Origin: an uncultured Hyphomicrobiales bacterium
GTDB taxonomy: Bacteria; Pseudomonadota; Alphaproteobacteria; Rhizobiales; Beijerinckiaceae
Assembly (NCBI GenBank): GCA_903889985.1
Contig: CAISZN010000546.1
Location: 1-37,345 of the forward strand
Reading direction: 5' to 3'
DNA length: 37,345 nt
This document shows, piece by piece, positions 12,691-32,420 of this stretch; the stretch's first letter is position 1, and every line of letters starts with the position of its first letter. The notes under the pieces were generated by a model that ran no database searches, was not told the origin of the DNA, and worked only from the letters and a program-made list of their open reading frames with translations. The translations under genes and the position numbers were made by a program.

Positions 12691-14115
12691 TCAGGGTCGC
12701 AAGTCGAGAACGGTAATCAATGCGATCACGGCATTCTGAATAACGCTTTCAAGATGATCGTCGCTAGCGATATCGGTCAGCATCGGCGCACTCAGACTCA
12801 GGCGAAGGGCGGCCACCGGGGCCCCACCTCGAACGCCGCAAGACACCGGCTGGCCCAAGAGTATCGGCGTTTTGAGATGAGCAAGCTTCGCGTGCAATTG
12901 AGCAAGATCCTGTCGGCCCATCCAAGACCCGTCTCGTCCTTTGATCAAAAAGGTGAAAATACTTTGCCGGGCCGACCATGAATGAGCCCCTTCAAACTCT
13001 TCTCGGCCTAACAAAGGTGTCGACAAGAGTTCAAGTTGTGGGGCTTTATCTATGAATGTGCGCACGCTCTTGCTGAATCGATCAATGGCAGAAATCACCA
13101 ATGACTCGTTCAAAGCGCAGAATGCTGTCCATTCCGCCAATGCCGCGCGCCAACGCAAGACCAATCCCAAATTAGCTTCCTGGCTCCGTAAGACGTCACA
13201 CTCTGGTCTTACAACTTTGTTTCTGAAAGTTGGATCAGACGAACTGACATTTTTACGATCGCTTGGTATCAACAATGCCCCGGAAAATGTAGGACCTCCT
13301 AGAAACTTCGAGCCAGTTATGATCACCATAAAGCCATGGGCCAGATATTCCCGCACGACGCTTGGGCTCACCCTCATCTGACAGGCATCAACGACCACCT
13401 CAAGATCGGATCCCCATCTTTCCTTCATATTCAGAACACTTCGAAGCGAAGGCCAAAGAACCCCCGTCTTGCTGACATCAGTAACGACCAGAACCGCCCG
13501 TGATCCGCCATCTTTGCTGGCTTGAACTTGTCGATTGAGTTCAGATTCTATGGAGGCAGAATTCAGAGGGCTGCCATCTTCCTCTCGTGCTGAGATACCA
13601 ACCACAGCATGAGCGCGGCCGTCTGACGTCTTCTGCAATGCATGAGGAACGCCTGAACCAGTTTCTGCGTCTTCGATCGTCAGGAAGGTCAGTGGCAGCC
13701 CAACCATACGATTGAGCAAGATTGCTGCATTCCTGTGAGAATCTGTTCCAGACGGGCTGAGAATGCATCTTGGCGCTGCGTCGTCTCGGGCGGCATATCC
13801 CAGCAGGGTTAGAATTCCGGATTTGATTTGCAAAACATGAGACCTGTAAATGTCTACAGCTCTCTTGCCGGCTGCCAGTTCGCCATAAATGCTTTGGTAG
13901 ACTGAAAGGACTTCTCGATAGCCTCTCGCCGCGAGCGGCGACGCCGTCGTGGAAGAAAAGCTATAGGGAGATGCGACCGGCCGCAGTGGGAGGTTGTAAC
14001 GATTACGCCCCTCGCCATCCAATACTATTCTTTGATCGCCCCCCGACGTCAGGATATCGAACGCGGCAGCCTCGTGGTCCCTTTCATCAAGACGGGAAAA
14101 TGCGAGAGCACTCAT
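12691..14115 (-). CDS. Uncharacterised fold-type-I PLP-dependent enzyme (aminotransferase V / decarboxylase-like)
   Basis: ILSPSGTDSHRNAAILL; VVVDACQMRVSP (PLP-binding Asp); VIITGSKFLGGPTFSGALLIP (candidate Schiff-base Lys). ATG at 14115 overlaps the upstream stop in ATGA. Confidence 0.75.
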   Translation of the reverse strand: MSALAFSRLDERDHEAAAFDILTSGGDQRIVLDGEGRNRYNLPLRPVASPYSFSSTTASPLAARGYREVLSVYQSIYGELAAGKRAVDIYRSHVLQIKSGILTLLGYAARDDAAPRCILSPSGTDSHRNAAILLNRMVGLPLTFLTIEDAETGSGVPHALQKTSDGRAHAVVGISAREEDGSPLNSASIESELNRQVQASKDGGSRAVLVVTDVSKTGVLWPSLRSVLNMKERWGSDLEVVVDACQMRVSPSVVREYLAHGFMVIITGSKFLGGPTFSGALLIPSDRKNVSSSDPTFRNKVVRPECDVLRSQEANLGLVLRWRAALAEWTAFCALNESLVISAIDRFSKSVRTFIDKAPQLELLSTPLLGREEFEGAHSWSARQSIFTFLIKGRDGSWMGRQDLAQLHAKLAHLKTPILLGQPVSCGVRGGAPVAALRLSLSAPMLTDIASDDHLESVIQNAVIALITVLDLRP

Positions 14116-15536
14116 CGTGATCCCTCGTCCTGACCATAGCTTGCATCGAGCATGATGAGGCGATCGATAAATCCATCCATGTCGCTCTTGAGCGTCCGGT
14201 GATTCATGATGGCCGCTCTGACCACAGGATGACCATTGAGAAATGTCAGCGATGGCGCGAACTGACCGTCCTCGTGAAGCAGCTCCACAACTCGCCTGTT
14301 CCGTTCTGCTGCATTTTCGCCGATGAAGCCAAAGCATACGATGTTCAGCGAGACCGGCGCTGCCAAGGCAAGCGAATCTTCTGCGGCAATTCGATCCGCC
14401 AGATGCATGGCGCAATTGCAATTGTATCGAATGTTCTCGCCTATTGCCTCGAAGCCATAGGTTTTCAGCGTGAACCAGGCTTTAAGGGCCCTGAAACCTC
14501 TTGAAAGGTCGGGGCCGGAATCCGTGGGCCACCAATCCCCCGCAGCAAGTCCGCGACTGGCTCGGGAGAGATATGATGCTTCGGATGCAAAGGTCGCGTC
14601 ATGCAAGTCTGCAGAGCGGCTCAAAAGAAACCCTGCATCATATGGGACATGCGCCCACTTATGAAAATCAAAGGCAATGCTGTCCGCGTGCTGGATACCC
14701 TCGAATCGGCCAGCAAGATCGGTGTCTGCCATGGCAAAAGCGCCAAGCGCAGCATCGACATGGAAGTACATGCCCTGTGATTTGGCAAATTGGCTCAAGG
14801 CCGCCAGTGGATCGATAGATCCTGTATTTACACTCCCTGCATTTCCGATCAGCAAGAATGGCTTTAGACCGGCCGCCCGGTCCCTCTCAACAGTCTCGGC
14901 AAGCTCGACAAGATCAATTTTATAATATTCATCGGTGCCGATCAGACGAAGGAAATCCGACCCGACGCCAGCCAGCTCCATCGCCCGGGAGACACATCCG
15001 TGAACCTCCTTGGAGGCATAGGCGGTCAAGCCAGATGTATGCGCGTCATAGCCATGCGCCCTCGTCGCCACACCAATTGCATGGACCCGAGCGATCAAGA
15101 CTGCGAGGAAGTTTGCTTGCGAGGCACCAGTTGTGAATATGCCGCGTACGCCTTCTGGAAATGAAAAGAACGAACGCATCCATTCTGTGACTTCCAGTTC
15201 AACCCCAATGGCAGCGTGATGGCGCCCGCCACAATTGGCATTCATCGTCGCGCACATCAGTTCCGCGATCAGGCCGATCGGCGTTCCCGCGCCCTGGACC
15301 CACCCCATGAATCCTGGATGGATGTTACCTCCCCCATAGGGGAGAATCGTGCGCTCGAACTCTTCGAGGACCGAATCAAGGGCCTCACCATGCAGCGGAA
15401 TCTGGCTGGCGGCACGTGATGGCGGCGCCTGCCAAACCGGACGCTGCCTTATCGTCGCCAGATGATTTATCGCAATATCGATCGACCTGTGAGCGTACTC
15501 ACGAAAGCTATCCCAACTTTCCGGATCGAATGTCAT
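14112..15536 (-). CDS. Group II PLP-dependent decarboxylase (aromatic-L-amino-acid decarboxylase-like)
   Basis: HPGFMGWVQGAGTP; ATMNANCGGRHHAAIGVELEVTEWM; FHVDAALGAFAMAD; SIAFDFHKWAHVPYDAGFLL. Confidence 0.88.
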   Translation of the reverse strand: MTFDPESWDSFREYAHRSIDIAINHLATIRQRPVWQAPPSRAASQIPLHGEALDSVLEEFERTILPYGGGNIHPGFMGWVQGAGTPIGLIAELMCATMNANCGGRHHAAIGVELEVTEWMRSFFSFPEGVRGIFTTGASQANFLAVLIARVHAIGVATRAHGYDAHTSGLTAYASKEVHGCVSRAMELAGVGSDFLRLIGTDEYYKIDLVELAETVERDRAAGLKPFLLIGNAGSVNTGSIDPLAALSQFAKSQGMYFHVDAALGAFAMADTDLAGRFEGIQHADSIAFDFHKWAHVPYDAGFLLSRSADLHDATFASEASYLSRASRGLAAGDWWPTDSGPDLSRGFRALKAWFTLKTYGFEAIGENIRYNCNCAMHLADRIAAEDSLALAAPVSLNIVCFGFIGENAAERNRRVVELLHEDGQFAPSLTFLNGHPVVRAAIMNHRTLKSDMDGFIDRLIMLDASYGQDEGSR

Positions 15537-15724
15537 CGGAAGATGGCCGCGGCCGTCCGCATAGAAGCAGAGACTGACCCAGTTCCATGCCTAGCAACTG
15601 CCATACCAGAAACCTTCACCTGCATTGGCTCGATGCTGATGCAATACTATTCTGCGCAACCCTTGCGCAGCGCTGGTCAGCCATCGAATGATGCAACCTG
15701 TCTAGCATTGAGATCGGTCGGTGA

Positions 15725-16990
15725 CTACGATGATTGGGCCTCAGCTTCAATCATCACATGTTCAGGCCTGTCTTCGAGCGCCGCATTTGTGAGCATATCC
15801 TGAAACGACCTGAACAGCTTATGCATGATTGGCTTTTTATAATGGAACATCGGGTCGTCATCCAAATCATGGACGATCATGATGTTGTCAGCTTCAAATA
15901 CCAGCATGCGACCATCTGAAATCGGGATACAATCGACAGCAAAATAGTCTACCGCATATGCGTCACAAAGCTTTTCCAATGCGGAGGCATAGCGCTTGGC
16001 GAAGACGGAATCGAAGCTTTCCATCCATTCCGCTTCTTCTGCGCGACGCTCCGGATGAAGGTTCATCTCTGCGCTGAGATAGTGGACCATCCAATGCGAT
16101 GAGATGGCCATATGACAGGCAAATGGGCGGCGCTTGATAAAGACGATGCGTTGCTTCCTGTAGAGCCCATCCGGACTCCGATATTCAATGAAAGGCGCCA
16201 TATAAAAGGTGCCTTCCGTCATGCGTTGCAAGTAGTTGGATAAAGAATCTGGCGATTCAATTAACTCCAACCCATTTCCTGCATGTGTACCTACGGGCCT
16301 CACAATGACAGGCATGGAGTAACCAGGCAGGAACTCTTCGACGCGACGTCTTCCCGCGGCAATTTCTTCGATCTCAGCGCGACTGACAATGACCTGGGGC
16401 GGTGACAGGATTGCTGGATCGTTTGACAGCTCTCGATGGAGCCTATCCCTCGTCATTTTGGCGATAAGACCAACATCGCGATTTATAATTGGCGGATGGT
16501 CGTGCCAGGCATTCAGCAACTCCTCCACCCTTCGAAGCACCCCCTGATTGGCAGGCGATTCCCCGATCGCCATGAATATGACATCTACGTCAGGAATTTC
16601 CGAGAGGGTCAGGGTTTTTTCGTCGATAAATACGGTGTAGAGCATGAAATCTGATTGCACGAGGAGGAAGTCGATCGGCGTATTGGCCGTCATGTCCCCT
16701 TCCACCATCAAGGCCGCAACACGCAATCCCTTGCCCGTTCCATGTTTTCTCTTGTAAATTTTTTTGAAGCGTAGCGCAGCCGATTGCATTTCCCGGCCCT
16801 TTTGCGGCTGGCCGGTAGCATGAACCATGACGGAGAGGTCCAGGAGCGCTTCGAAATCCGTGGGATCCTGCGTATAGCGGTTTACGAGCGCCTCCCATAG
16901 TTCGGGTATCGCCTGCTCGTTATAAAGGGTTCGAAACAGTACCGTATTGCCAAGCAGTAATCGCTCAGAGGGGGTTGAGCTGGCGGGCAT
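15725..16990 (-). CDS. ATP-grasp-like protein with helical/TPR-like N-terminus
   Basis: MPVIVRPVGTHAGNGLELIES resembles an ATP-grasp lysine/glycine loop; FAVDCIPISDGRMLVFEADNIMIVHD resembles the metal-binding Glu/Asn segment. N-terminal ALVNRYTQDPTDFEALLDLSVMVHATGQPQKGREMQSAALRF is TPR-like. Confidence 0.65.
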   Translation of the reverse strand: MPASSTPSERLLLGNTVLFRTLYNEQAIPELWEALVNRYTQDPTDFEALLDLSVMVHATGQPQKGREMQSAALRFKKIYKRKHGTGKGLRVAALMVEGDMTANTPIDFLLVQSDFMLYTVFIDEKTLTLSEIPDVDVIFMAIGESPANQGVLRRVEELLNAWHDHPPIINRDVGLIAKMTRDRLHRELSNDPAILSPPQVIVSRAEIEEIAAGRRRVEEFLPGYSMPVIVRPVGTHAGNGLELIESPDSLSNYLQRMTEGTFYMAPFIEYRSPDGLYRKQRIVFIKRRPFACHMAISSHWMVHYLSAEMNLHPERRAEEAEWMESFDSVFAKRYASALEKLCDAYAVDYFAVDCIPISDGRMLVFEADNIMIVHDLDDDPMFHYKKPIMHKLFRSFQDMLTNAALEDRPEHVMIEAEAQSS

Positions 16991-19044: not shown

Positions 19045-19779
19045 ATGTCGCAGGGCGGCAGTTCGGAGCGCATATCCTTTTTGCGGGGCGCCATCGCCCG
19101 CATCGAGTCGGGTCAGCCCGAAGCTCGTGCGGCGCGTGGGAGTCTGAGCGAAGTCGTGCCGGCGAAGGCCGGAGACCGGACGGCGGCCTGCGGCTTCGCC
19201 CTGAGTCTGGCGGCGCAGGCCGCTGGCAACCGGGGCATGGTGGTCTGGGTCGCCGAGGACTTCGTCCTGCTGGAGGCGGGCCTGCCCCATGGGCCGGGCC
19301 TCGTGGAGCAGGGAATTGACCCGAACCGGCTGGTGCTGGTGCGCGCAGCCAGTGCGAAACAGGCGCTCTGGGCCATCGAGGAGGCGCTGAAATCGCCTGC
19401 CTGCGCCGTGGTGCTGGGCGAGGTGGTGGATGGCGCCCGCCAGTTCGATCTCGCCTATACGCGCCGTCTCGCGGTCGCCACCCGCACCTCCGGGGCCCAT
19501 GGCATCCTGCTGCACGGGGCCCCTGCCCCCGGCGGCCTCTCCACCGCCGCCCAGGCGCGCTACGAGGTGCGCAGCCACCCGGGTCCCCACCTCGTCTCCG
19601 CCGCTGGCCGGCGCCCCATCACCAGCCAGTCCGCTTGGGGTGTGCGCCTGCTCAAGGCCCGCGCGGCACAGGGGCTGAGCGCCCTGCCCGATCCCAACCG
19701 CTGGCAGAGCTTTGTGGGTGCCGCCGCCGAAGCCGCACCCGCCCCACTCCCCTCCCTCCCACGCAGGAGCGTCCGGTGA
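19045..19779 (+). CDS. imuA: ImuA (SOS mutagenesis, RecA-like)
   Basis: Position 5' of imuB-dnaE2; LRGAIARIESG start and GFALSLAAQAAGNRGMVVWVAEDFVLLEAGLPHGPGL. Confidence 0.88.
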   Translation: MSQGGSSERISFLRGAIARIESGQPEARAARGSLSEVVPAKAGDRTAACGFALSLAAQAAGNRGMVVWVAEDFVLLEAGLPHGPGLVEQGIDPNRLVLVRAASAKQALWAIEEALKSPACAVVLGEVVDGARQFDLAYTRRLAVATRTSGAHGILLHGAPAPGGLSTAAQARYEVRSHPGPHLVSAAGRRPITSQSAWGVRLLKARAAQGLSALPDPNRWQSFVGAAAEAAPAPLPSLPRRSVR

Positions 19780-21278
19780 CGCGCTATCTCTCGATCCATA
19801 TCGCCGGGCGCAGCCGCGAGGACGCGCGCCCGCTGACCCCCGCCCGCCTCGCCGACTGGGCGCGGCGCTTCACACCCCTGTCCGCCCCCGACGCGCCCGA
19901 TGGCGCCATGCTCGATGTGAGTGGAGCCGCCCATCTCTTCGGTGGCGAGAAGGCGCTGCTCGACGAGATCGAACAGCGCCTGGCTGCGGCGGGCTGGGAA
20001 GCCCGAACCGCGCTTGCGCCCTCACCGGAAGGAGCCTGGGCGCTGGCGCGCTGGAGCCGCGTGCGCCTCGTGCCCGAATGGATCGAGGACAAGGCGCTGG
20101 TGCGCCTCTTCGGCCCCCTGCCCGTCGCGGCGCTGCGGCTCGACGATGCCACCGTCTATGCGCTGTCGCAGGCGGGCCTCAAGCGCATCGACGACATTCT
20201 GCACCGCCCGCGAGCGCCGATCACCGCGCGCTATGGCGCGGCCGTGTTCCAGCATCTCGACGCCATGCTGTGCCGGACCAAGAGCCCCATCTCGCCGCGC
20301 TTCGAGGCGCCCGCCTATGTGGTGGAGCGACGGTTTCCCGAACCCCTCGTGCGGCGCGAGGACATCGAGGCGGTGCTTGAGCTGCTCGGCGGGGATCTCT
20401 GCCGCATGCTCGAACGCCATGGCGAGGGCGCGCGGCAGATGCAGATCGATCTGTTCCGCGTCGACAATGCGGTGCATCGCATCAGTGCAGCGGCCAGCCG
20501 CCCGCTGCGTGATCCCAAGGCCATGAGCCGCCTGTTCGCCGAGCGCATCGCGGCCGCCAGCGAGGCGCGGCAGGACGATCCGCTCGAGGCGGGCTTTGGC
20601 TTCGATCTCATCCGGCTGGCTGCGATGGAGGTCGAACGGCTGGATGCGCGGCAGCTGACAGGCCCTCACCCCAGCCCTCTCCCGCAAGCGGGAGAGGGAG
20701 CGCACACGCAGATGCGTGACGACACTCCGACATTAAGCTCGATGCTGCCGCCCCCCTCGCCCCGCCGAAGGTGGGGAGAGGGTAAGGGTGAGGGGCTGCC
20801 ACAGAACGAAGACGCAGCCGATCTCGTCGATCGCCTCGGTGCGCGGCTCGGTACGCGCCGCGTCACGCGTCTCATTCCCCAGCCATCGCATATTCCCGAA
20901 CAGGCGGTGATGCTGTCGCCAGCTGCCAGCCTGCGTGGCAATGCGGCGCTGGATCTGTGGCAAGGCCCCTTCGCCGTCACGCAGGCCACGCGGCCCCTGC
21001 GCCTGTTCGAAAAGCCCGAGCCCGTCGAAGCCCTCGCCGAAGTGCCAGATGGCCCGCCCCTGCGCTTTCGCTGGCGTCGCGTCATGCATGAAGTCGCTGC
21101 CATCGAGGGGCCAGAGCGCATCGCACCCGAATGGTGGAAGGCGGATTCTTCGCCACTGACGCGCGATTACTTCCGCGTCGAGGATCGCGAGGGTCGCCGC
21201 TTCTGGATGTTCCGCGAAGGCCTCTATGGCCAGGAAAGCCAGCGGCCGCGCTGGTTCATGCATGGGCTGTTCGCCTGA
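19776..21278 (+). CDS. imuB: ImuB, Y-family DNA polymerase-like mutasome protein
   Basis: GTG start at 19776 overlaps the imuA stop (GTGA). RYLSIHIAGR; AMLDVSGAAHLFGGEKALLDEIEQRL; C-terminal DYFRVEDREGRRFWMFREGLYG. Confidence 0.9.
   Translation: MTRYLSIHIAGRSREDARPLTPARLADWARRFTPLSAPDAPDGAMLDVSGAAHLFGGEKALLDEIEQRLAAAGWEARTALAPSPEGAWALARWSRVRLVPEWIEDKALVRLFGPLPVAALRLDDATVYALSQAGLKRIDDILHRPRAPITARYGAAVFQHLDAMLCRTKSPISPRFEAPAYVVERRFPEPLVRREDIEAVLELLGGDLCRMLERHGEGARQMQIDLFRVDNAVHRISAAASRPLRDPKAMSRLFAERIAAASEARQDDPLEAGFGFDLIRLAAMEVERLDARQLTGPHPSPLPQAGEGAHTQMRDDTPTLSSMLPPPSPRRRWGEGKGEGLPQNEDAADLVDRLGARLGTRRVTRLIPQPSHIPEQAVMLSPAASLRGNAALDLWQGPFAVTQATRPLRLFEKPEPVEALAEVPDGPPLRFRWRRVMHEVAAIEGPERIAPEWWKADSSPLTRDYFRVEDREGRRFWMFREGLYGQESQRPRWFMHGLFA
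20661..20805 (+). repeat. Composite REP-like element inserted in frame in imuB
   Basis: CCCTCACCCCAGCCCTCTCCCGCAAGCGGGAGAGGGAG followed by CCCCGCCGAAGGTGGGGAGAGGGTAAGGGTGAGGGG. Translates to GPHPSPLPQAGEG...PSPRRRWGEGKGEG. Confidence 0.85.
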
Positions 21279-21289
21279 GGTTCAAGCGT

Positions 21290-24829
<3,540 letters not shown>

Positions 24830-29980: not shown

Positions 29981-31228
29981 TCATGAACTGTAATTTTGAA
30001 TGGGCTCATTCAAGTCTGGGATAAGGAATATCCCATAGATAGATACTAAAGTGATTAGCCCAATGGCGATTGCTAGCGGCACCTGACTAATCTGGTACGC
30101 TCCAATAAATCCTCCGCACAAGGTAGAAAAAACAGCGGCCCATACACGGCTTATGGAATCTCCAGCTGCAATGATCAAATGAAGTGATTCTGGAGGAGAT
30201 ATTCTTTGACCAATAGAAACGACAAGCGTCCGAGCCGCAGCTGTTGAGATGCCAAGTAGCGAGCAAACCAGCAAAATATAGAACACATGCAGCTCAACCA
30301 ACGACATGATCATAAAAATACCAGCGCAACACGACGCAATTCCGGCAATTATCCCGAGCATGATAAGCTTACCAGATGCATTGCTCTTCATAAACTGTAA
30401 TATTATATGGCTGCCAAACACCATACCCGAAGCAGATATTGCCAAACACAGACCATAATATCGCGCATAGTCGGCAGTTGGAATCATTTCTAACAGCAGT
30501 GTCGGAATCAACGCAGCCCAAAATGTACCCATTAGAGGCCCGAGTAGCCGAGCAGACGTCAAGCGGCGAAGCTTCGGGCTTTGCAGAATTTGGATAAACC
30601 CACCAAGTGGAGAACTTCTACGATTACGATGGATATCTGGGCAATGGCGTCGCAATTGCCACGCCCAATAGGCCGCAACCACCGAAAGAAAAATCACATC
30701 CAAATAAAGACAAAACCAAATCTCAAGAAAAAATGACAGAACCGCGACAATCGCCGGAGCAACTGTAGAAGCAGCCCCCTCATAAGATTGCAATCTATTG
30801 ATAATTATTTCGCGCTGCTTGACGTCGACCGCCACCCGATTCAGATAAAAATATTTTAGCGGATTAAGTAGGCCGTCTAAACATGAAAGCGAAAACTGGC
30901 ATGCGACGAGAAACGGAAAGAAGTCTACGTACGTTAAAGCAAATAAGGAACCTAATAGAAGAGCTATTTTACCCAAGGCGACAATGAAAATAGCAAAAAA
31001 ACCGATTCGTGGCTGGACAACAAACGGTATTAAAAATCCTGATGTAACGGTACCGACGTTCATGGCGACCCAAAGCGTTACAGCAGCAGTCGCTCCAAAA
31101 TGAGTTGCTGCAATCGTTATGATCGCAACCCTTGTAAGAGCCAAACCCAGCTGGCTTAGCAATGCCGCAGCAACGAAAATATTTGCCGAGAATCGGGCCG
31201 GCTCTTCCTCGCGTTTTTTATTTTGCAT
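29981..31228 (-). CDS. MFS-like multi-TM transporter (candidate exporter of island B)
   Basis: 415 aa with many hydrophobic TM segments. Start overlaps the end of the PP-loop gene by 11 nt; low GC. Confidence 0.75.
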   Translation of the reverse strand: MQNKKREEEPARFSANIFVAAALLSQLGLALTRVAIITIAATHFGATAAVTLWVAMNVGTVTSGFLIPFVVQPRIGFFAIFIVALGKIALLLGSLFALTYVDFFPFLVACQFSLSCLDGLLNPLKYFYLNRVAVDVKQREIIINRLQSYEGAASTVAPAIVAVLSFFLEIWFCLYLDVIFLSVVAAYWAWQLRRHCPDIHRNRRSSPLGGFIQILQSPKLRRLTSARLLGPLMGTFWAALIPTLLLEMIPTADYARYYGLCLAISASGMVFGSHIILQFMKSNASGKLIMLGIIAGIASCCAGIFMIMSLVELHVFYILLVCSLLGISTAAARTLVVSIGQRISPPESLHLIIAAGDSISRVWAAVFSTLCGGFIGAYQISQVPLAIAIGLITLVSIYGIFLIPDLNEPIQNYSS

Positions 31229-32420
31229 TGAGAAGCCGCTTATGCGCCAGCCGCAATGCCATAGGTATAGGCCCTAACGTATCAAACCCTAAATCAGCGT
31301 CAAAAACTAGCGGGCTCCCTAAGCGTGTCGACAGTTCTGCAGACGAATCTAATAGCTTTTCACCGACCCCGGGGAAATCAGAAGTCAGCACGTAAGCCAA
31401 CTGATAGGCCAAAGTCCGACCAGGAGAGAAGCTTGGATACCGACCTTCATAATTCGCAAAAGAGTGCTTCGGATAACACCCGTCGATAATCTTCTTCGGT
31501 GTCTTCCAGAGAGGGAATAGAAGCTTTACGCCATCTACTTTTCGCACCGGCAGTTCGGGTGGCATCCCACCGCGTAAATTCCAAGCGAAGTATTCTGCAA
31601 TTAAGTCCTCGAAATTGATGCCTGTACAAATGTGCCTTGCATTGTTTAATTTGGCAATATGAACCAGAACTCTACGAATGATAAGTGTGCCCAAGAACTC
31701 ATAATCTTCACCAGGAAATTGCTTTCCAAATCGGCTTATAAGATCCGGCCCTTCACCGGTTGCACCTAAAATCTCTCGAGTTTCAAGCTCAGATACCACA
31801 TTCAGTTTCAATGAAAGTTGATCGCAGATATCTTTTGCCCGAGAGATCCCAGCGTCCCACTCGCCAGGCCCCGAAATGATCACTGGAATAATCTCTATAT
31901 TTTTATCGGATTTATATTTTTCAAGCGCCGATATCAGCGCGTTGCTATCACCGCCACCGCTAACACCGATCACGATTTTAGCAACGCCGCTGCCGGACTT
32001 TTCAAAATATTGATCCAACATTGATGAGACATTCTCTTCAACAACCTGGATGCATTCAGCCCGACTGAACCGTCTAAGAATTGTGTTTCCGGATCGTTGC
32101 GACAGGTCACGGTATAGATATTCAGCCACGGCTCCATTCCCGTCCGCCGGATCAGAAATCTTTAAATGAGCATGTATGTAGCTTGTTGGGTCAATGTTTC
32201 TTTGCAAGAAAGCAGCAACTAAAGTATTGCGTCCAAACTCCGACATTTTTGTTCCCAAGCAGGGGAAAAGCCGAAAACCAGAATCCCCGACCTCCTTTAC
32301 ATAAAGCGCAACTGAGGCCCAAGCTATCTGCGCGCTATTAAGAACATCCAGCACAGTATCGTCATCGCCATGCGGAAGATCGAACATTCCATGCGTTGAA
32401 AACAATCGAAGAATTGGCAT
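31218..32420 (-). CDS. PP-loop ATPase / asparagine-synthase-like (adenine nucleotide alpha hydrolase superfamily) enzyme
   Basis: KIVIGVSGGGDSNALISALEKY PP-loop (SGGGDSN near 31941-31961); HICTGINFEDLIAEYFAWNLRGG. Lacks an N-terminal catalytic Cys2 glutaminase signature. Confidence 0.75.
   Translation of the reverse strand: MPILRLFSTHGMFDLPHGDDDTVLDVLNSAQIAWASVALYVKEVGDSGFRLFPCLGTKMSEFGRNTLVAAFLQRNIDPTSYIHAHLKISDPADGNGAVAEYLYRDLSQRSGNTILRRFSRAECIQVVEENVSSMLDQYFEKSGSGVAKIVIGVSGGGDSNALISALEKYKSDKNIEIIPVIISGPGEWDAGISRAKDICDQLSLKLNVVSELETREILGATGEGPDLISRFGKQFPGEDYEFLGTLIIRRVLVHIAKLNNARHICTGINFEDLIAEYFAWNLRGGMPPELPVRKVDGVKLLFPLWKTPKKIIDGCYPKHSFANYEGRYPSFSPGRTLAYQLAYVLTSDFPGVGEKLLDSSAELSTRLGSPLVFDADLGFDTLGPIPMALRLAHKRLLNAK

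Follow-up and report, generated by a model that had tools for sequence, protein, structure and literature searches.

Association of a RimK-like ATP-grasp ligase, a group II decarboxylase, and an unassigned PLP protein in proteobacteria: a possible protein-modification module with flagellar links

The ATP-grasp ligases RimK and LysX/ArgX attach amino acids to a protein, and amines are the products of group II decarboxylases. A decarboxylase, an ATP-grasp ligase, and a pyridoxal phosphate (PLP) enzyme are found in combination in the methanofuran system (MfnA, MfnC, and MfnD). In Shewanella, the flagellin-modification operon sfmABCDE includes the ATP-grasp gene sfmE, and deletion of sfmE lowers flagellin mass and spreading on soft agar (PMC3765264). 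In this study, a set of three genes (the trio) at positions 12691–16990 of the window was analyzed, the window being the whole stretch of 37,345 nucleotides (nt) from an uncultured Hyphomicrobiales bacterium. The trio encodes an ATP-grasp ligase (GRASP), a group II decarboxylase (DDC), and a further PLP protein (PLP2). With a probability of roughly 45%, the trio is a dedicated protein-modification module that most probably acts on a protein of the flagellar filament or on a comparable surface protein. The genes are arranged as follows:

15725–16990, minus strand: ATP-grasp ligase (GRASP), 421 amino acids (aa), predicted to have about 80 N-terminal residues of tetratricopeptide repeat (TPR)-like helix pairs and a RimK/LysX-type ATP-grasp domain
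14112–15536, minus strand: PLP-dependent group II decarboxylase (DDC), 474 aa
12691–14115, minus strand: PLP2, 474 aa, a fold-type I PLP protein left unassigned, with a predicted class V fold
14112–14115, minus strand: ATGA overlap of the DDC stop and the PLP2 start

The open reading frames (ORFs) of GRASP, DDC, and PLP2 contained zero internal stops. The ATG at 14115 was preferred as the start of PLP2, and a longer ORF reaching 14421 with a TTG start was regarded as an over-extension. The ATGA overlap of the two PLP genes, claimed in a preliminary description of this DNA, was read directly in the sequence. Because the gap between the GRASP and DDC genes is 188 nt, a single transcript for the trio is presumptive.

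The Shewanella sfm operon resembles the trio in having an ATP-grasp gene in a flagellin-modification setting, as the relatives of the trio have one in a flagellum-linked setting. The gene contents are different. The sfm operon has PseI-like, thiamine pyrophosphate (TPP)-dependent, reductase, and methyltransferase genes and is without the PLP pair, and SfmE, unlike GRASP, is described as an ATP-grasp_4 domain protein. The analogy with the methanofuran enzymes lies in the combination of decarboxylase, ATP-grasp ligase, and PLP enzyme; no other gene of the methanofuran pathway was seen beside the trio. The methanofuran pathway was rejected for the trio, as DDC scored 78.3 bits against the MfnA cut-off of 299.4.

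The conservation of the trio as a unit was investigated in other genomes. Among 297 genomes of the order searched with PLP2, 11 were positive. All three families adjoined, in varied orders, in the neighbourhoods of 7 PLP2-positive genomes, one of them on a contig that ended inside PLP2. A scan of genome contigs with the single PLP2 sequence found no relatives, and a scan with a ligase alignment confirmed 554 relatives, from which 80 loci were kept. The strong-ligase set comprised 109 loci including the window, drawn from the scan and from class- and phylum-wide genome samples. Linkage was counted in 80 loci flanked on each side by 4.5 kb or more, with a distance limit of 3 kb, and 60 regions of 20 kb from related genomes were used as controls. 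Within 3 kb of the ligase, DDC was present in 57/80 loci, PLP2 in 41/80, both in 38/80, and neither in 20/80. Every ligase–DDC and ligase–PLP2 pairing was on the same strand. The models of GRASP, DDC, and PLP2 had no match in the control regions (0/60).

The trio was found in proteobacterial genomes labelled Alpha, Beta, Gamma, and Delta, so the refutation that the preliminary description had named, absence of co-occurrence elsewhere, was not observed. The gene orders seen were GRASP-PLP2-DDC, PLP2-GRASP-DDC, DDC-GRASP-PLP2, and DDC-GRASP. Since gene order is shuffled, the co-occurrence is not merely inherited synteny. DDC and the ligase are therefore the commonest core, as shown by the counts near the ligase (57/80 for DDC vs 41/80 for PLP2), and PLP2 is a frequent third member. 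In two loci (L101:11215-12306 and L106:11122-12216), the place of DDC and PLP2 after the ligase was taken by a similar gene resembling class V aminotransferases (PF00266, tested on L101). Across the loci, the immediate surroundings of the trio contained no other conserved gene family, and this covered transporter, regulator, release, precursor, and tailoring genes.

GRASP had no family match in Pfam and NCBIfam, and the curated RimK family model in these libraries was also not matched. A sequence profile of the ligase gave weak DDL/RimK matches only among solved structures. AlphaFold2 models of GRASP and PLP2 were built with alignments of relatives from other genomes. The GRASP model (mean predicted local distance difference test, pLDDT, 93.4) showed two N-terminal helix pairs followed by an ATP-grasp domain. 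The best structural match was RimK (Z 17.8, root-mean-square deviation 3.8, 267 aligned), LysX/ArgX matched at Z ~16, and the matches covered residues 89–407. Foldseek alone ranked LysX/ArgX at the top. Lower matches included D-Ala-D-Ala ligase and glutathione synthetase folds and the graspetide macrocyclase MdnC (Z 13.8), which RimK exceeded. R231, R281, D353, E366, and D368 were invariant in 37 sequences of GRASP relatives, and the family signature H293/W300/H303/Y304 was kept with one or two exceptions. By comparison with the superfamily, D353, E366, and D368 are putative Mg ligands, and R231 and R281 may bind the nucleotide.

The predicted structure confirmed that GRASP is a RimK/LysX-like member of the ATP-grasp superfamily, which had been a guess in the preliminary description. 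GRASP shares with RimK and LysX/ArgX the predicted fold over residues 89–407 (Z 16–18), the acidic residues D353/E366/D368, and the basic residues. It differs from them in its low identity (11–17%), added N-terminal TPR-like helices, and frequent decarboxylase and PLP2 partners. A C-terminal extension of ~170 residues was seen in the ligase ORFs of L039, L044, and L046, which are from Mesorhizobium, a Hyphomicrobium, and a Rhizobium; it resembled peptidase C39 around a Cys motif (sub-threshold in Pfam, E 0.21, in one of the three). A longer TPR-ATP-grasp paralogue was also found near transposase-like genes and outside any trio on contig C566 of the window assembly (L029:14272-16104).

DDC is a member of PF00282, with 163 bits against a cut-off of 27, in agreement with its earlier classification as a group II decarboxylase. 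The closest solved relatives were the Trp decarboxylase of Ruminococcus gnavus (4obu, E 1e-53), then DOPA/Tyr decarboxylases. DDC carries H179, D261, and H292-K293, including the catalytic Lys. PF00282 membership and the catalytic H-K and D are shared with R. gnavus Trp, DOPA/Tyr, and DAB decarboxylases. DDC differs from the named group II decarboxylases in remaining under all NCBIfam equivalog cut-offs (RhbB 123/900, PanP 103/606, MfnA 78.3/299.4, and HisDC 46/305 bits) and in adjoining the ligase in most loci examined. Because no equivalog cut-off was reached, the substrate of DDC cannot be assigned.

PLP2 had no match in Pfam or NCBIfam and no significant sequence match in the PDB, consistent with the earlier statement that it resembles no named enzyme. 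The AlphaFold2 model of PLP2 (pLDDT 86.6) had a fold-type I structure, matched by NifS-like proteins at Z 24–26 and by the cystine lyase C-DES at Z 24.7. Foldseek ranked decarboxylases first. From the model, we read PLP2 as a class V fold-type I protein (NifS/C-DES-like). The reaction of PLP2 is not inferable from these structural matches because their identity is just 10–16%. The residues invariant in 30 PLP2 relatives were G25, G26, D27, S122, G123, T124, D213, K216, D243, C245, Q246, S269, and K270, and A244 was nearly invariant. The PLP hallmarks DACQMR and TGSKF, pointed out in the preliminary description, were both present and conserved in these relatives. The sole invariant Cys across the 30 sequences was C245 in DxCQ, which lies outside the C-terminal region as read from the alignment rather than from a superposition.

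Class V PLP enzymes, including NifS-like desulfurases, C-DES, and aminotransferases, share with PLP2 the predicted fold (Z 23–26) and the expected order of D-x-C-Q and S-K motifs. Unlike them, PLP2 has its own N-terminal signature, GGDxRI, and no significant match in Pfam, NCBIfam, or the PDB. A PLP2 paralogue was found beside a P-type ATPase gene and outside any trio on contig C596 of the window assembly (L028:4420-5928). In another locus (L026:8740-11586), the gene directly after a PLP2 relative encodes an ATP-grasp protein of another kind (PF14397, associated with sugar transfer). This locus hints at a wider pairing of PLP2 with ATP-grasp enzymes.

The genomic context of the ligase was investigated with 23 E. 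coli K-12 flagellar proteins as seeds, chosen to avoid seeds from the cases themselves. Flagellar genes were found near 16/108 ligase loci and 0/60 control regions (P ~0.001). One weak match (L066, a 110-aa ORF, E ~1e-5) was set aside, which left 15 loci. In L114, a flagellin gene between PLP2 and GRASP was found with a case-derived seed and confirmed by PF00669. The flagellum-linked set was thus 16 loci, comprising the 15 well-supported loci from the E. coli seeds and L114. On a tree of 109 ligases, these 16 loci needed 5 changes of state, corresponding to five separate clades:

Clade 1, g41 group: most copies near ~760-aa flagellins; a divergent copy (L123) by 388-aa flagellins
Clade 2, Rhizobium group: DDC-GRASP between flagellin genes
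Clade 3, L114: flagellin between PLP2 and GRASP
Clade 4, L130: fliC-fliD-fliS, then DDC-GRASP-PLP2, on the same strand
Clade 5, betaproteobacterial-type L089/L096/L110: beside FliK/FliS/FliD/FlgN/MotB

The g41 group is probably Bradyrhizobium, as judged in part from its DUF1522 flagellins. DDC was present in 16/16 flagellum-linked loci vs 43/66 others (P 0.004). Taking ~2% as the share of random 20-kb regions with flagellar genes and ~30 as the number of independent ligase clades, both being estimates, five or more clades would arise by chance with P ~4e-4. Divergent TPR-ATP-grasp relatives (L018, L029, L117–L121, L136, and L138) had flagellar neighbours in 0/9 cases and were excluded from the counts.

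Flagellin also co-occurred with the ligase at the genome level. Of 57 ligase-positive genomes, 56 carried Flagellin_N, and the one without it was 68% complete. In the class sample, where a strong ligase was defined as >200 bits, flagellin was found in 235/385 genomes, comprising 12/12 strong-ligase genomes vs 223/373 others (P 0.002). The window assembly has 4.78 Mb in 695 contigs with 8.55% estimated contamination, and the contigs examined fall near 53–56% or 60–65% GC. Because of the contamination and the two GC groups, it is uncertain whether its flagellin genes and the trio share an organism. One flagellin match was on a contig of 62% GC, similar to the window flanks.

A protein, possibly flagellin, is suggested as the acceptor because RimK and LysX/ArgX were the best matches, flagellar neighbours occurred in five clades, and no exporter, precursor, or biosynthetic gene was conserved. 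In the proposed mechanism, DDC would decarboxylate an amino acid to an amine. PLP2, which is missing from some loci, might convert or supply an alternative amino acid or amine; this is the weakest step. GRASP, guided by its N-terminal TPR-like helices, would form an ATP-dependent amide between the small molecule and a carboxylate of the target. From the genomic context of the relatives, the target would most probably be a flagellar filament protein, or a sugar on it, modified in the cytoplasm before export. The preliminary description had proposed a small biosynthetic pathway for an amino acid- or amine-derived conjugate. A dedicated pathway of ATP-grasp ligase, amine-making decarboxylase, and unassigned PLP enzyme was supported by the co-occurrence, by the structural matches of GRASP, and by the lack of a known pathway in the family libraries and papers searched. 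The small-molecule conjugate was less supported, given the lack of exporter or precursor genes, the protein-ligase matches, and the flagellar neighbours.

Several results weigh against the proposed mechanism and its flagellar target. The window trio is not beside flagellar genes, and neither are its nearest relatives L031–L033. Flagellar genes are absent from the 10 kb around most relatives, the Hyphomicrobium, Mesorhizobium, and Massilia loci among them, and the ligase stands alone in 20/80 loci. Some of the co-occurrence with flagellin could stem from genome size and lifestyle. The locus-level P values are overstated because loci within a clade are not independent; the honest unit of flagellar linkage is the five clades, whose chance expectation was estimated and not measured. 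The 60 controls had fixed positions and came from part of the genomes, and no matched controls accompanied the named-genome cases. Flagellin is perhaps not the general target because ALTTAQ-repeat proteins are also neighbours in some loci.

A free small-molecule pathway was also considered, in which an amine from DDC and a partner tailored by PLP2 are joined by the ATP-grasp enzyme into a diffusible amide. The same enzyme classes build free amides, and D-Ala-D-Ala ligase and glutathione synthetase folds are among the GRASP matches. The majority of trios lie away from flagellar genes, and no acceptor protein emerged from the analysis. However, transporters, regulators, and release or other tailoring enzymes were not conserved beside the trio, RimK and LysX outranked the small-molecule ligases (by 1–4 Z units only), and the flagellar linkage recurred in five clades. 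Such a pathway is somewhat unlikely. A graspetide-like ribosomal peptide pathway, with the ATP-grasp enzyme modifying a small precursor peptide, is highly improbable. The ATP-grasp fold, the lower match to MdnC, and the possible C39-like motif of some Mesorhizobium and Hyphomicrobium ligases, under the Pfam cut-off and in one of three, are compatible with it. The RimK match exceeded that of MdnC, and no short ORF was conserved across genera near the trio, the region to which the search applied. Apparent short-ORF clusters were probable shadow ORFs or limited to close relatives.

Two further explanations retain modification of a surface protein. The main target may be a non-flagellin protein, such as the long ALTTAQ-repeat proteins, with the flagellar linkage as one specialisation among several. 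PF20080 genes lay up to 10 kb from the ligase in five loci (L035, L068, L081, L089, and L095), against 0/60 control regions, and they occurred in 22/46 ligase-positive named genomes vs 6/385 class-sample genomes (one of the six being the window assembly). The locus-level difference was not significant (5/108 vs 0/60, P 0.16), the repeat was in only 1/12 strong-ligase genomes of the class sample, and the 22/46 were dominated by Rhizobium. This target is rather improbable. The glycan variant of the flagellar proposal, in which flagellin receives a sugar that the ligase has already joined to its amine or amino acid, is distinctly improbable. The g41 trios (L020:10114-10947) and a lone Phenylobacterium ligase (L045:11193-11984) have an Anp1-like glycosyltransferase gene next to them, a GT41-family gene lies among Rhizobium flagellin genes, and the product of Shewanella sfm on flagellin is a substituted nonulosonic acid (PMC3765264). 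In general, however, no glycosyltransferase or sugar-biosynthesis gene was conserved with the trio. Separately, the ALTTAQ-repeat (PF20080) proteins are very long and were also found on contigs C174, C8, and C628 of the window assembly (L206–L208).

The base composition of the trio was compared with that of the window. The trio genes had a GC of 0.51–0.55 and a third-position GC (GC3) of 0.51–0.59, while most flanking genes had 0.60–0.65 and 0.71–0.84. The GC of the whole window was 0.607. The lower-GC block of three minus-strand genes seen earlier was thus recovered with both measures. As GC and GC3 are far under those of most flanking genes, horizontal acquisition of the trio is suggested. 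A second two-gene block on the minus strand (29981–32420) had an even lower GC (~0.45); it encodes a 415-aa protein without a match and one of 400 aa that weakly matches the PP-loop family ATP_bind_3. On the plus strand (19045–24829), a gene resembling Y-family polymerases precedes one for a DnaE-type polymerase, an arrangement similar to the imuB-dnaE2 mutagenesis cassette.

The trio mapped to no known pathway in the family libraries or papers searched, although the preliminary description had allowed for one. No description of the trio was found in the library entries or the literature searched, and Shewanella sfm was the only precedent found for an ATP-grasp enzyme with flagellin, subscription journals being mostly outside the scope of the literature search. 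The trio may represent a new flagellar or surface-protein modification in several proteobacterial classes, in which a RimK-like ligase and a dedicated decarboxylase attach an amine or amino acid, separate from known glycosylation and lysine methylation; this proposal is tentative and open to doubt. The gene set is strongly conserved from rhizobia to betaproteobacteria. Automated annotation is largely blind to it because two of the three proteins are without a Pfam or NCBIfam family. If flagella are indeed modified, this would be new chemistry on a structure on which motility, phage adsorption, and plant-host recognition depend.

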